Source: Gallionella sp.
GTDB lineage: Bacteria > Pseudomonadota > Gammaproteobacteria > Burkholderiales > Gallionellaceae
Length of the DNA: 64,000 nucleotides
Assembly (NCBI GenBank): GCA_028689145.1
Contig: JAQTWT010000002.1
Coordinates: 1-64,000 of the forward strand
Direction of reading: 5' to 3'
In this document: positions 21,481 through 28,443 of the stretch, piece after piece
How positions within the stretch are numbered: the first letter of the stretch is position 1
How the letters are laid out: each line of letters begins with the position of its first letter
Notes under the pieces: generated by a model
What the model was told of the DNA's origin: nothing
Seen by the model: the letters and a program-made list of their open reading frames with translations, nothing else
Database searches by the model: none
Made by a program: the position numbers and the translations under genes

Positions 21481-23688
21481 ATGAACGCGCAGAACAACCA
21501 GCAACCGGCTGACGATAGAAGCATTCTTGCGGAGAACCATTTTCCTCTGCTGCGCCGCTTCTCGGTTGCCAGTCTGGTGGCGATGCTTGCCACCGCCGCC
21601 ATTCTGATATTGCTGTACCGGCATGACCAACTTGCCGAGCACGAGAGCATTTCCGAACAGCAGAGCGAACAAATCGCAATTCATTTTATGCGGATGCTGG
21701 GTGATCAGGTTAACACCATACTGCCCGCCAGCAATGGACTCGCTACCGGTACACTACCGGCTAATTCGAGTCCCGCCTTATTGTCTGCAGTGCAGGAAAT
21801 AGTACGCGAACATGACGTACTCAAACTAAAAATTTATAACCTATCGAGGACAATCGTTTACTCGTCTGCCAAGGACGAAATTGGCGTAACCGGCCTTCAT
21901 ACGGATTTTTTGGCAAAAGCGCTATCAGGTGAAGCGAGTTACCGGCATGAATTCCGCGATTCGTTTCACGCGGCAACCGGCGAACTGCGTGATGCCTATA
22001 TTGATATTAGCTACATACCGCTGAATTACGCAGGGAAGCGCATTGGCGCCATCGCGATATACCGCGACTCCACCCCGGTGTTCAGGCATCTGAATACCAA
22101 CACGATACGCATCCCGCTGATCATTTTTGGCGTATTTGCATTGCTGTATGCCGCGTTGTTTTTCTACATACGCAGAACCGACCTCGCCATTGAGGAATGG
22201 CAGAAATTTATCCACGACACTGCTTTGGTCGGGGAAGCGCAGCAGCGCATGTCGCGTTTTATCGCCAATGTGCCGGGCTTCGTTTTTTCCTTCCGCAGAT
22301 CACCTGAAGGCCATTGCAGCTTTCCATTTGCCAGTCCTGGCATCAACGAGATTTACGGCCTGCATCCCGAAGACGTGCGTGACGACATGGCTGCGCTGCA
22401 TAAGTTGGCGCATCCCGAGGATGCGCGTCGTGTCGAGGATATTCTCGACGAGTCGGCAAGAATTATGGCACCTGTCAAAATGGAGTTTCGCGTGTTGCGT
22501 CCGGGACATCCTGAGTGTTGGATCGAGTGCCGTTCCACCCCTGAGTGCGAGGCCGATGGAGGCATGATCTGGCATGGCATTATGCTCGATATTACCGAGC
22601 GCAAGCGTGTGGAAGCCATGCTGGTGCAACGCGAACATGAATTCCGTACTCTGGCGGAAAACATGCCGGACACGCTGATCCGCTATGACCGCGAAGGCCA
22701 TCGCACCTACATCAATCCGGCGCTGAAGCGAATTTCTGCTGTCAGGGACGAACAAATGATCGGCTTGACGCAGCAGGAATCCAATCCTTTTACCATGCCG
22801 GAAATTTACCGGCTGGCACTGGAACATACGCTTGCAACGGGTGAGCACAGCGAGCTCGAGCTACCGATACGCACGCCATCGGGCGACATACGCACCAACC
22901 TGGTTTCCATCGCGGCAGAGCGGGCGGCGGATGGGCAAATTACGGGCGCGATTACCATCGGTCACGACATCACCGAGCGCAAACAGGCAGAACGCCAACT
23001 GCGTGAGCTTACTGCCTATCTACAAACGGTGCGAGAGGAAGAAAAGGCCGGGTTCGCACGGGAAATTCACGATGGTCTGGGGGGTACGCTGTTCGCGCTC
23101 AATTTACAAGCATCACTGTTGAATATGGAACTGCCTGCCGATTTGAAACAAACGCCGCTGTTTGATCACATCCAATTGATATCGCAATTGATCGACAGCG
23201 CAACCGTATCTATGCGCTCCATCATCAATGACATGCATCCGAGCATCCTTAACGACCTTGGGCTCCCCGCGGCGATTAAATGGCAAGCTGAGCAATTCCA
23301 CAAACGCTCCGGCATCGAGTGCAGGGTCAGTTGCTGCTATAAGGAAGGCAATGAGTGGTGTAACTACGAATACCGTGAATGCAAGCTGGACAAAACACCG
23401 TCGATTAACCTGTTCCGTATCTTTCAGGAAGCCCTTACCAATGTTGAGCGGCATTCCGGTGCCTCCAGAGTGGAAGTCGAATTTCGACTCGATGATAGTG
23501 AAGTGATGTTGTCGATCAGCGACAATGGGCGAGGTCTGCCGGAAGGGCATAACATCGCTGCAACCTCGTATGGCATACGTGGCATGCGTGAGCGTGTCGT
23601 GCATCTGGGTGGCAAGATCGGATTCGGCAGGCCGCGCGGTGGCGGATTCAGTATAAGTGTGGAATTACCGTTGCCCGCCATAACATAA
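21481..23688 (+). CDS. membrane PAS sensor histidine kinase, NarL-type (HisKA_3)
   Basis: 735 residues with a transmembrane helix at about 27-47, a periplasmic sensor region to about 205, a second helix at about 209-231 (IPLIIFGVFALLYAALFFYI), two PAS domains (about 250-375 and 383-505), a HisKA_3 dimerisation domain and an HATPase_c domain (from about 635). The phosphoacceptor is H530 in REIHDGLGG. ATP-binding motifs are FQEALTNVERHS, SDNGRGLP and GIRGMRERV. Just before the ATPase domain there is a short insert with five cysteines (C614, C618, C619, C627, C634), unusual for the family. No response regulator gene is adjacent, so it is an orphan kinase. Signal unknown. Confidence 0.9.
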   Translation: MNAQNNQQPADDRSILAENHFPLLRRFSVASLVAMLATAAILILLYRHDQLAEHESISEQQSEQIAIHFMRMLGDQVNTILPASNGLATGTLPANSSPALLSAVQEIVREHDVLKLKIYNLSRTIVYSSAKDEIGVTGLHTDFLAKALSGEASYRHEFRDSFHAATGELRDAYIDISYIPLNYAGKRIGAIAIYRDSTPVFRHLNTNTIRIPLIIFGVFALLYAALFFYIRRTDLAIEEWQKFIHDTALVGEAQQRMSRFIANVPGFVFSFRRSPEGHCSFPFASPGINEIYGLHPEDVRDDMAALHKLAHPEDARRVEDILDESARIMAPVKMEFRVLRPGHPECWIECRSTPECEADGGMIWHGIMLDITERKRVEAMLVQREHEFRTLAENMPDTLIRYDREGHRTYINPALKRISAVRDEQMIGLTQQESNPFTMPEIYRLALEHTLATGEHSELELPIRTPSGDIRTNLVSIAAERAADGQITGAITIGHDITERKQAERQLRELTAYLQTVREEEKAGFAREIHDGLGGTLFALNLQASLLNMELPADLKQTPLFDHIQLISQLIDSATVSMRSIINDMHPSILNDLGLPAAIKWQAEQFHKRSGIECRVSCCYKEGNEWCNYEYRECKLDKTPSINLFRIFQEALTNVERHSGASRVEVEFRLDDSEVMLSISDNGRGLPEGHNIAATSYGIRGMRERVVHLGGKIGFGRPRGGGFSISVELPLPAIT

Positions 23689-24119: not shown

Positions 24120-24418
24120 ATATAGACCTTGTGTAGTAAGGGGTAAACGGTCGGAGTCGGGCGACCTGAATTCGCCGGTCGCATCTTGCCCGAGCTGATG
24201 CAGCGCATCAACCCCGGTGCAAAGATTGCCGATAACGTGCGGCATTGTACTTTGGGACAATATCATTCGGCCAGAATTGACCGTAGAATTTTAGCTTAAC
24301 GTAGTGTCATCAAGCCATTTCCAAAGAACAGCTTTTGACGCATCTAGCTGATTTATAGGGGGAACGGAGTAACCGGGTGTAATCCGGTTGACGCTCTGAT
24401 TTCCGGGAAGTGATAGAA

Positions 24419-24619
24419 ATGATGTCTGCAAAGCAAACTTTAGAAATCTTTCATACCGGTCATGCCACTGCGGGCAATCGGCGCGATATATTTTCATACA
24501 TCTCCTCCTCCCCAAAATCGCCAAAATTTAATGAATTGCAATCAAGGTACGCGACTGTTGACGTAACCGATAGCAATTTGAAATCGCCCGGTTTTAAGGA
24601 ATTAAAACCGGACGCGTAA
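24419..24619 (+). CDS. small ORF A, paralogue of small ORF B, before csp copy 1
   Basis: About 66 residues, not from a family I recognise. It contains ISSSPKSPKFNELQSRYAT, matching LSSSPKSPKLNELRSRHIT in the ORF at 25185-25382, which also precedes a cold-shock gene. Between the two, many codon differences in this block are synonymous (CCA/CCG, AAA/AAG, GAA/GAG, TTG/CTG, TCA/TCG), which argues for real translation. A second weaker copy of the motif, LKSPGFKELK, occurs near the end. Starts at 24410 (GTG), 24419 or 24422 (ATG) are possible; GGGAAG at 24405-24410 fits either ATG. It ends 62 bases before csp copy 1. Confidence 0.5.
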   Translation: MMSAKQTLEIFHTGHATAGNRRDIFSYISSSPKSPKFNELQSRYATVDVTDSNLKSPGFKELKPDA

Positions 24620-24681
24620 AGCATTATTGTTGTAAACAACCCGCAGGGGGTTTCCCTGTTTTATGAGTAAGGAATAGTCAA

Positions 24682-24885
24682 ATGGCAGCAGGTACAGTTA
24701 AATGGTTCAACGATGCAAAAGGTTTTGGTTTCATCACCCCCGATGACGGCAGCGAAGATTTGTTCGCGCACTTCTCCGCCATTAACATGAGCGGATTCAA
24801 GTCGCTCAAGGAAGGCCAGAAGGTTACTTTCGAAGTGACACAGGGCCAAAAAGGCAAACAAGCTTCCAATATCCAGGCTCCTTAA
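24682..24885 (+). CDS. cold-shock protein, CspA family (copy 1)
   Basis: A 67-residue single cold-shock domain, [20 protein letters not shown], with RNP1 (KGFGFI) and RNP2 (LFAHF). Such proteins bind single-stranded RNA and DNA and act as RNA chaperones. It differs from copy 2 by one residue (Ala3 versus Thr3). AAGGAA before the ATG is the ribosome site. An intrinsic terminator follows directly, so it is the last gene of its transcript, possibly with small ORF A. Confidence 0.97.
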
Positions 24886-24901
24886 CCGGTTCCTGAATTG
24901 A

Positions 24902-24936
24902 TAAAAGCCCGGCACGAAAGTGCCGGGCTTTTTTTG
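24902..24936 (+). terminator. intrinsic terminator of csp copy 1
   Basis: AGCCCGGCA (24906-24914), loop CGAAAG, TGCCGGGCT (24921-24929) and a T-run. Confidence 0.92.
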
Positions 24937-25072
24937 TCCGGGAAATGGCTATGTTATTGCCAATTCCCGCTCATACCCAATCGCAGATTACCCCGCTGCG
25001 TAAGTGAATGGAAAAATTGACGCGAAGCAGGACTTCATCCGTTATCCAAATTTAGCCACCATTCAATATTAC

Positions 25073-25102
25073 TAGGCCGAAATATCTATATATTTCGGCC
25101 TA
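25073..25102. repeat. perfect 12-bp inverted repeat between the two csp units
   Basis: TAGGCCGAAATA, loop TCTATA, TATTTCGGCCTA. There is no clear T-run after it. It lies about 80 bases before the start of small ORF B and could be a terminator for read-through from copy 1 or a leader structure of copy 2. Confidence 0.55.
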
Positions 25103-25184
25103 TATGATTTTCTTCCCAAGCTAGGCATAATTCGCGCCCGCTCAACATGGGCGGGTTGTAATAATTATTCAGCAAGGATGTGTT

Positions 25185-25382
25185 ATGTTGCCCGCTATGC
25201 CAGTTTTAAATAGTACTTACGCTGATCGCGCAACTGTGAATAGTGCTGCGGGCATGTTCATTAATGATTTATCATCCTCCCCGAAATCGCCAAAGTTAAA
25301 TGAGCTGCGATCGAGGCACATAACTCGTCATGCGACAGATATTGATGCAAAGTCGGTCAAGTCTGAAAAGGACAAAACCTAA
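25185..25382 (+). CDS. small ORF B, paralogue of small ORF A, before csp copy 2
   Basis: 65 residues starting MLPAMPVLNSTYADRATVNS, with the shared block SSSPKSPKLNELRSR in the middle and a lysine-rich end (KSVKSEKDKT). AAGGA at 25174-25178 sits at a good distance from the ATG at 25185. It is basic and Ser/Pro/Lys-rich, with no membrane segment. It ends 72 bases before csp copy 2, the same arrangement as small ORF A. No known family is recognised. Confidence 0.55.
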   Translation: MLPAMPVLNSTYADRATVNSAAGMFINDLSSSPKSPKLNELRSRHITRHATDIDAKSVKSEKDKT

Positions 25383-25454
25383 GCGATAAAAGCTCTGGTG
25401 TTGTAAAAAAAGCCTGCAGGGGGTTTCCCTGTTTTATGAGTAAGGAATAGTCAA

Positions 25455-25658
25455 ATGGCAACAGGTACAGTTAAATGGTTCAACGACGCAAAAGGTTTTG
25501 GTTTCATCACCCCCGATGACGGCAGCGAAGATTTGTTCGCGCACTTCTCCGCCATCAACATGAGCGGATTCAAGTCGCTCAAGGAAGGCCAGAAGGTTAC
25601 TTTCGAAGTGACGCAGGGCCAAAAAGGCAAACAAGCTTCCAATATCCAGGCTCCTTAA
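25455..25658 (+). CDS. cold-shock protein, CspA family (copy 2)
   Basis: 67 residues, [20 protein letters not shown], with RNP1 KGFGFI and RNP2 LFAHF. It differs from copy 1 at one residue and at a handful of silent positions. The near-identity against the strong divergence of the upstream small ORFs suggests gene conversion or strong constraint on the csp part. Confidence 0.97.
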
Positions 25659-25971: not shown

Positions 25972-26722
25972 ATGCAAACTGTCGCCTCACGAATCGAAGA
26001 CCTCGTTAACGCTGGCTTTAATGTAGCCAAGAGTGCTGATTACAGGAACTGGGCAAATCGAGTGTCCGACGTTCCTGTCGTCCGCCATTGACGAGGGTGC
26101 CGCTACGAAATTCAAAGAGCTAGGGAATGAGGGGTTTACTGAAACATGGATGGATTGTAGAGACCGACAAGTAGGTCATCTCGAAGGGTTGGCAGTTCGC
26201 CTTGCAAACGAAGACTCAAAAAGAGAATCATCAAGTCCATCCGCAACAACATCAACACCACCTGTACATCTGACCAAAAAGGTGTTCGTGGTACACGGGC
26301 ACGATAATGAGGCAAAGGAAACGGTTGCTCGGTTTATTGAGCGCCTGCGCCTTACACCTGTCATTCTTCATGAACAACCTAACTCTGGCCGAACCATTAT
26401 TGAAAAATTCGAGGTGTTCTCTGATGTTGGTTTCGCAGTAGTCCTGCTCACTCCAGATGACATTGGCGCGCCATCATTAGAACCAAAGAATCTCAAGTCA
26501 CGAGCCAGACAGAATGTAATACTTGAACTTGGGTATTTTATGGGCAAGCTTTCTCGGTTCAGAGTCTGCGCCCTCTATAAGCAAGGAGTTGAAATGCCTT
26601 CTGATTATCAAGGCGTCCTGTACATCGAAATGGATTCTGCCGGTGCTTGGAAGAAAAAGCTGGCTCAGGAACTTGTCGAGGCCAACCTCTCCATTGACCT
26701 TGACGGGCTCCTTCATGCGTAA
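25972..26722 (+). pseudogene. TIR-like nucleotide-binding protein, frameshifted
   Basis: The gene starts at ATG 25972 after GGAG and reads MQTVASRIEDLVNAGFNVAK to about residue 32, then must shift frame at 26065-26068 (one extra C) to continue as TFLSSAIDEGAATKFKELG. Without the shift the first frame stops at once (PVVRH, stop), and the second has only a GTG at 26033. The joined product would be about 250 residues: an N-terminal helical domain, a Ser/Thr/Pro linker, and a C-terminal TIR-like domain with KKVFVVHGHDNEAK, EQPNSGRTIIEKFE, AVVLLTPDDIG and RARQNVILELGYFMGKL. This matches the predicted nucleotide-binding TIR-like family also used in Pycsar and CBASS effectors. It is flanked by integron-like boxes. 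Sequencing error is an alternative to a real frameshift. Confidence 0.75.
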
Positions 26723-27846: not shown

Positions 27847-28443
27847 TTATTTGCGCATCGCCCGTTCTGATGGGGTCAACGCGTCGATGAAGCCCTGACG
27901 CGAGAACAGCCGCTCGGCGTATTTCATCAGCGGTGCGGCATCCTTGCTCATCTGGATGCCGTAATGGTCGAGGCGCCACAGCAGCGGGACGATCGCCACG
28001 TCCAGCATGGAGAACTCGTCGCCCAGCAGGAATTTCTGCTTGGTCAGTATCTGCGAGATCTGGGTCAGGTTGTCGCGGATCGCGGCGCGCGCCTTGTCGG
28101 CGGTTTTGCCGCCCTGCTCGATCACTTCCACCTTGCTGTAGAGTTCCTGTTCGAAACGGTGCAGGAACAGGCGGGCGCGACCGCGCATCACCGGATCAGG
28201 CGGCATCAGCTGCGGATGCGGGAAGCGTTCGTCGATGTACTCGTTGATGATGTTGGCTTCGTACAGAATCAGGTCGCGTTCGACCAGTGTCGGCACTTTG
28301 TTGTACGGATTGATCACCGCGATGTCTTCGGCACGGTTGGCCATGTCGACATCGATCACTTCAAAGTCCATGCCTTTTTCGTACAACACGATCCGGCAAC
28401 GGTGGGAGAATGGGCATGTGGTGCCCGAATAAAGTCGCATCAT
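27847..28443 (-). CDS. sspA: stringent starvation protein A (RNA polymerase-associated)
   Basis: A 198-residue glutathione-S-transferase-fold protein. The N-terminal thioredoxin-like domain starts MMRLYSGTTCPFSHRCRIVL, with NPYNKVPTLVERDLILYEA following, and a helical domain covers about 85-195. SspA binds RNA polymerase and affects stress and stationary-phase transcription. Either of the first two ATG codons could be used. AGGAAG lies just upstream on the minus strand. It leads the sspAB pair. Confidence 0.95.
   Translation of the reverse strand: MMRLYSGTTCPFSHRCRIVLYEKGMDFEVIDVDMANRAEDIAVINPYNKVPTLVERDLILYEANIINEYIDERFPHPQLMPPDPVMRGRARLFLHRFEQELYSKVEVIEQGGKTADKARAAIRDNLTQISQILTKQKFLLGDEFSMLDVAIVPLLWRLDHYGIQMSKDAAPLMKYAERLFSRQGFIDALTPSERAMRK

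Follow-up and report, generated by a model that had tools for sequence, protein, structure and literature searches.

A putative lineage-restricted family of small proteins near signalling and cold-shock genes in Gallionella and relatives

Two small open reading frames (ORFs) that precede cold-shock (csp) genes in a 64,000-nucleotide stretch of Gallionella DNA (the whole analysed stretch, hereafter the window) belong, as judged from their sequences, to a previously unnamed, lineage-restricted family of small proteins. Its members are short, mostly 55-85 amino acids, and are built around the core SPK-x-x-EL-x-x-R. On balance, we lean towards a family that acts in trans in c-di-GMP, motility and stress circuits, with the window copies placed as the first cistrons of csp units. 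The link to csp is real but secondary to the signalling and motility context of the family.

ORF 1 occupies positions 24419-24619 of the forward strand (66 amino acids, MMSAKQ...), with an in-frame GTG at 24410, and ORF 2 positions 25185-25382 of the same strand (65 amino acids, MLPAMP...). These coordinates, and the motif SSSPKSPK-x-NEL-x-SR common to both ORFs, are as given by the first-pass annotation. The conserved block reads SSSPKSPKFNELQSR in ORF 1 (24503-24547, forward strand) and SSSPKSPKLNELRSR in ORF 2 (25272-25316, forward strand). Eight of its 15 codons differ between the two ORFs, six silently and two with replacement, and widening the block by one codon on each side yields ten differing codons, six of them silent. 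A silent majority had been claimed on a count of five in nine; the majority stands, and the corrected count, 6/8 or 6/10, changes nothing. Over their length the two ORFs agree in 113 of 206 nucleotide columns.

The ORFs end 62 nt (ORF 1) and 72 nt (ORF 2) before near-identical csp genes, in keeping with the spacing of 60-75 bases noted earlier. Both csp genes lie on the forward strand and encode 67 residues, the first at 24682-24885 (PF00313) and the second at 25455-25658. A comparison of the two units finds 44 of 48 columns identical in the csp leader, 200 of 204 in the csp gene and 55 of 55 in the stretch downstream. Since these parts are near-identical and the small ORFs are not, the csp part of both units was probably copied or homogenised recently, the small ORFs having diverged meanwhile. 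Each csp leader carries a hairpin (at 24644-24658 before the first csp gene, where it reads CAGGG-GGTTT-CCCTG, and at 25417-25431 before the second; forward strand as read from the sequence; the site scan lists both on the reverse strand), and an intrinsic-terminator-like hairpin with a T run, seen by eye and absent from the site-scan list, follows the first csp gene at 24907-24935 on the forward strand. Further on, at 26033-26722, the window holds a 229-residue ORF with a CAP12/Pycsar-type TIR domain (PF10137, 130 bits), which may be frameshifted, as a short ORF just upstream in another frame may be its start.

One bacterial family, represented by 158 genomes, was searched with a profile built from the first relatives found; 26 of these genomes gave a total of 33 matches at E<=1e-5. 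The positive genomes fall into three genera: 13 of 76 genomes of the same genus, four of a second and nine of a third; the remaining 63 genomes of the same genus, many of them incomplete, have no match at this threshold. Weaker matches were excluded from the 33, and one of these, a truncated copy before a csp gene (G110:C313, 8.5e-5), is named separately. A search of the window's own 2.74 Mb genome with 30 residues of ORF 2 returned only the two ORF places at E<=10, ORF 1 at 1.2e-5, and no third copy. Together with the recurrence in 26 of 158 genomes, this indicates that the likeness of ORF 1 and ORF 2 is not due to chance. In genome_contigs, P[TS]SPKx[HQ]E[LI]R occurs in 19 stretches, of which eight were confirmed as relatives and 11 were not. 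All eight come from metagenome-assembled genomes; three of these are named Sideroxydans, one Sideroxyarcus and one Gallionella, the other three names being vaguer, and the naming suggests that the bacterial family is Gallionellaceae. An order-wide family was considered and rejected: in 399 genomes, with no more than 15 candidates per genome scored, hits beyond the bacterial family were all weak, the best having E 7e-4. A second search, scoring all candidates in 41 genomes, matched the own genome only. One genome, G502, holds four members, at least two of them behind c-di-GMP-I aptamers.

The earlier remark that no described Ser/Pro/Lys-rich small protein was known in this place was borne out by curated-family and literature searches. 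Pfam gave nothing above cut-off for P0001, P0002 or 11 aligned family rows, NCBIfam no match for five proteins, PHROGs none for the 11 rows and the PDB sequences none at threshold, and tblastn of plasmids with one member was likewise negative. No description of the family was found in the accessible parts of the literature on c-di-GMP in Gallionella and Sideroxydans and on riboswitches in Gallionellaceae, nor in those parts, to which most subscription papers do not belong, on small proteins or upstream ORFs (uORFs) of c-di-GMP riboswitches and on ORFs upstream of cold-shock genes. A single paper came up for the combination of Gallionella, c-di-GMP and riboswitch (PMC10333796).

Selection on the peptide, proposed from the window pair, holds across the family. 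In ten gapless pairs, pN/pS in the true frame ranged from 0.10 to 0.51 and was the lowest of the six frames every time; the runner-up, at times by a small margin (0.50 versus 0.52), was the reverse frame with the same third positions. Nei-Gojobori dN/dS was below 1 in all 17 pairs (0.15-0.56), several distant pairs having saturated dS; for ORF 1 and ORF 2 themselves dS is 2.1, with silent sites saturated. The pairs for these tests were chosen by us. Within the trio L080, L081 and L082, the core shows no replacement change in any of the three pairs against nine, eight and four silent ones. Since the true frame admits comparatively few replacement changes, the family behaves as a selected protein, and the small ORFs apparently encode real proteins. 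Chance ORFs are ruled out by the same frame test, constraint being strongest in the true frame. The AlphaFold model, run with ten sequences, predicts a single helix over residues 36-62 and nothing structured ahead of it; its confidence is low (mean pLDDT 59.7, pTM 0.30). The best reading of these predictions is that the C-terminal SPK-x-x-EL-x-x-R segment starts a single helix in an otherwise largely disordered protein, the N-terminal half being variable and probably disordered.

The genomic neighbourhoods point to signalling. Five of the 33 matches precede csp genes, 19 have signalling or motility genes nearby (13 assigned by Pfam, six by eye) and nine lie elsewhere, so that a regulator or partner of the Csp proteins in particular, as first suggested, is not the rule. 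Pfam assigns PilZ neighbours to three members (G059:C46, G040 and G502:C335), PAS-GGDEF (G053), GGDEF-EAL (G055) and a histidine kinase (G502:C263) to one each, and response regulators to two (G059:C50 and G107). A LuxR-type regulator stands upstream at G506, and another together with a methyl-accepting chemotaxis protein (MCP) at G502:C217; HD (G508), PAS (G024) and hemerythrin (G522) neighbours complete the set. At G502:C217, G506 and G508 the signalling neighbour is 460-640 nt away. The six further assignments (G101, G526, G539, G114, G054 and G507) rest on inspection by eye or on resemblance to a neighbour that was scanned, and the nine members with no recognised signalling or csp neighbour are those of G018, G502:C166, G512, G516, G540, G533 and G541 and two in G532. 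In the window, a 735-residue PAS/HisKA_3 histidine kinase at 21481-23688, 730 nt before ORF 1, adds to the signalling genes seen close to members.

At least seven of the 33 members (G059:C46, G040, G053, G054, G502:C263, G502:C335 and G507) start 41-48 nt behind the end of a c-di-GMP-I aptamer, and aptamers below about 63 bits may have been missed at G502:C217, G502:C166 and G532:C61. The aptamers score 65-77 bits, and 80.6 at G502:C335, against a cut-off of 35. Among the matches listed, 106 of the 158 genomes contain such aptamers, one to eight each, a density at which, by estimate and not by simulation, seven placements this close are not due to chance. The window itself gave no RF01051 aptamer at the gathering score, and the locus with both ORFs (L003) none at E<=0.5. 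A hidden aptamer before ORF 1 was considered, as AACCGG...CCGGTT-GACGC looks aptamer-like by eye, and rejected, as 24260-24440 gave no match at E<=10. The aptamers of the own genome directly precede PilZ-like, HlyD-like and other genes, with no small ORF in between at the PilZ-like and HlyD-like ones (by eye). Behind aptamers of G020, G026 and G037, small ORFs resemble the N-terminus of the family only, as judged by eye, and lack the SPK core; one of them is a weak profile match (E=0.088). Pairing of the ribosome-binding site behind riboswitches exceeds the shuffled mean at eight of ten loci, with G040 and G053 below it, and stands out only at G059, G020 and G037 (4, 5 and 6 of 100 shuffles as high), which hints at sequestered ribosome-binding sites. 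As a separate observation, a comparison of L211 (G000:C11:5048 onward) with L117 and L120 shows the pairing of a riboswitch and an HlyD-like gene (by eye) in two versions, one having a leader ORF and one lacking it. In G000, the opening codons of the leader ORF look fused to those of the HlyD-like gene, as if a deletion between short repeats had removed the leader.

ORF 2 is preceded by a palindromic operator-like element, TAGGCCGAAATATCTATATATTTCGGCCTA (25073-25102, forward strand; none expected in shuffles), and by a putative -10 hexamer, CATAAT (25126-25131, forward strand), seen by eye where the promoter scan lists none. CATAAT takes the place of the TATAGT-like hexamers that follow the operator at other loci; a -10-like hexamer often lies about 28 nt downstream of the palindrome. 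In the form CCGAAATAT-N-TA-N-ATATTTCGG, the palindrome precedes ORF 2 and the ORF-csp units of G033 and G059; the G038 unit has a partial version (by eye), and no palindrome lies before ORF 1 within three mismatches; in the window the operator is present only ahead of copy 2. It also stands before csp without a small ORF, in G005 ahead of the csp leader and in G019 ahead of a csp gene, and elsewhere before signalling and other genes. A csp gene at G000:C7 was rejected as a further case, its orientation placing the palindrome 3' of csp. In the form CGAAATAT-N-TA-N-ATATTTCG, 35 sites occur in 14 of the 76 genomes of the genus, and a backward-read control gave none. The palindrome is seen before bacteriohemerythrins, LuxR-type response regulators, CheW/MCP-like, HDOD-like, PilZ-like, csp and other genes, all named by eye. 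From its distribution the palindrome possibly marks a regulon, for which we know of no regulator. Behind the palindrome at G000:C7 (about 28009-28150; L174), L176, L183, L189 and L191, some 90 nt are conserved. This stretch carries CTCTCCTCC (anti-Shine-Dalgarno-like) and an intrinsic-terminator-like end, and adjoins a glutaredoxin-like gene (by eye) in three of the five loci; it is a candidate small RNA. Tentatively, and with more doubt than conviction, the family might be read as the shared output of c-di-GMP-I riboswitches and the palindrome regulon in probable Gallionellaceae, coupling the decision between sessile and motile life to effector genes (PilZ, GGDEF, chemotaxis) and, by way of its csp-linked branch, to cold shock.

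The csp-linked copies among the 33, namely the two in the window, those of G038 and G033 and a broken one in G059, look like one sub-branch that attached to csp once. In a tree of 26 members, out of 34 rows made up of the 33 matches and G110:C313 (G101, G526, G533, G516, G502:C166, both G532 copies and the broken G059:C4 were omitted), the five csp-linked rows require a single change (support 70/77), as they do in 69% of 200 bootstrap trees; none of 500 shuffles was as low. A lysine before SPK would mark this branch: it is present in six of six csp-linked copies, the broken G059 copy included, and in none of the 21 other tree rows. Frameshifts or stops in relatives had been named beforehand as evidence against selection on the peptide. 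They occur once, in the csp-linked copy of G059, where frame-breaking indels and stops interrupt the ORF and csp reads on; G059 has two other, intact copies. The csp-linked copy of G110 lacks the N-terminal half. Individual indels could be artefacts of assembly, as many of the genomes are fragmented. The broken G059 copy, the truncated G110 copy and the 63 of 76 genus genomes without a match indicate a dispensable protein; decay and patchiness thus favour a dispensable regulator and count against any central part in expressing csp.

The same loci bear on the proposal that the small ORF is a cis-acting leader, whose translation tunes the translation or termination of the downstream csp, PilZ or GGDEF gene and whose peptide is kept for ribosome pausing or coupling. 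Its position as first cistron close upstream of csp, the N-terminus-like ORFs in the riboswitch leaders of G020, G026 and G037, and the leaders that can pair with the ribosome-binding site, few of which clearly beat shuffles, are all in line with such a role. The leader hairpin itself belongs to csp. The pattern GCAGGGGG-N2-4-CCCTGT, which as an exact pattern does not count diverged leaders, has 25 matches in the 158 genomes, 22 of which lie upstream of a csp gene, with their starts 47-50 nt ahead of its GxVKWFN motif; a small ORF is present at six of these 22 places and absent from 16, so the ORF is an addition to csp and not a required leader. In agreement, only two of the seven csp genes in the own genome have a small ORF upstream, and the operator stands before csp without the ORF in G005 and G019; the idea of a translated csp leader fails as a rule. 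A leader should moreover always lie directly upstream of the gene that it controls. Behind the copies of L080-L082 there are only opposite-strand genes (among ORFs of 60 amino acids or more), an arrangement that a leader peptide does not explain, and at several loci the next co-directional gene (at least 90 amino acids) is 180-640 nt away. A single C-terminal core is also conserved before many unrelated downstream genes. For the csp copies a cis-leader function is possible; for the family we regard it as unlikely.

Alternatively, the small ORF could be a dispersing cassette, copied repeatedly between a regulatory element and its gene and having little or no function in the cell. This idea would fit the PilZ-type genes behind riboswitches, which have the ORF in G040, G059 and G502 but lack it in G000, as well as csp genes of both kinds and the existence of decayed copies. 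Against it, every pair tested is under purifying selection (17 dN/dS pairs and 10 gapless frame-test pairs), and we consider it quite improbable.

A conserved RNA or 5' UTR structure of the cspA thermoregulator type, with the ORF being spurious, was also weighed. The Rfam cspA model (RF01766) matched 24578-24934 in unit 1 at 78.5 bits, just at its cut-off of 78, and the fold of 24330-24700 does somewhat better than its shuffles (z -2.0; 2 of 100 as good). The match extends over the csp coding sequence, unit 2 scores 69.4 bits, below the cut-off, and the five other csp genes of the own genome, which lack the ORF, also match, at 31-68 bits. Conservation tracks codon position, with changes gathering at third positions and the true frame most constrained; this pattern largely refutes the explanation, which is hardly credible.

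Returning to action in trans, we propose that the protein serves as a small adaptor or regulator whose C-terminal helix would dock on a partner in c-di-GMP, motility or stress circuits. In the window, each small ORF sits between the promoter region and csp, as the first ORF before the csp gene, and may be co-transcribed with it as first cistron. Co-transcription would mean that the small protein is made when csp is made, and its production might then depend on stress. If this model is correct, relatives of iron-oxidising bacteria would have an unstudied layer of signalling. The cultured isolates Sideroxydans ES-1 and Gallionella ES-2 are reported to have 43 and 46 genes in GGDEF/EAL sensory COGs (PMC3770913). 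Being short, the genes of the family also lend themselves to deletion one at a time.

Among known systems, the cspA cold-shock mRNA leader (RF01766) is, like the leader of unit 1, a 5' region before csp; unit 1 scores just at the cut-off of its model. In contrast to it, the window leader holds a selected ORF, the match takes in coding sequence, and the ORF family is found away from csp as well. Genes controlled by c-di-GMP-I riboswitches (RF01051) resemble the at least seven members that come first behind an aptamer, whereas the window copies have no aptamer match and the aptamers of the own genome precede other genes directly. Bacterial uORFs and leader peptides form a general class of small first cistrons close before a regulated gene. 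The family shares this position, but its core is kept across unrelated downstream genes and some copies have no co-directional gene behind them. Small regulatory proteins of bacteria are, as a general class, short, partly disordered, lineage-restricted and encoded near regulatory genes. Although the family has no relative at threshold in Pfam, NCBIfam, PHROGs or the PDB sequences, it resembles this class in its length, partial disorder, restriction to one lineage and regulatory gene neighbours.
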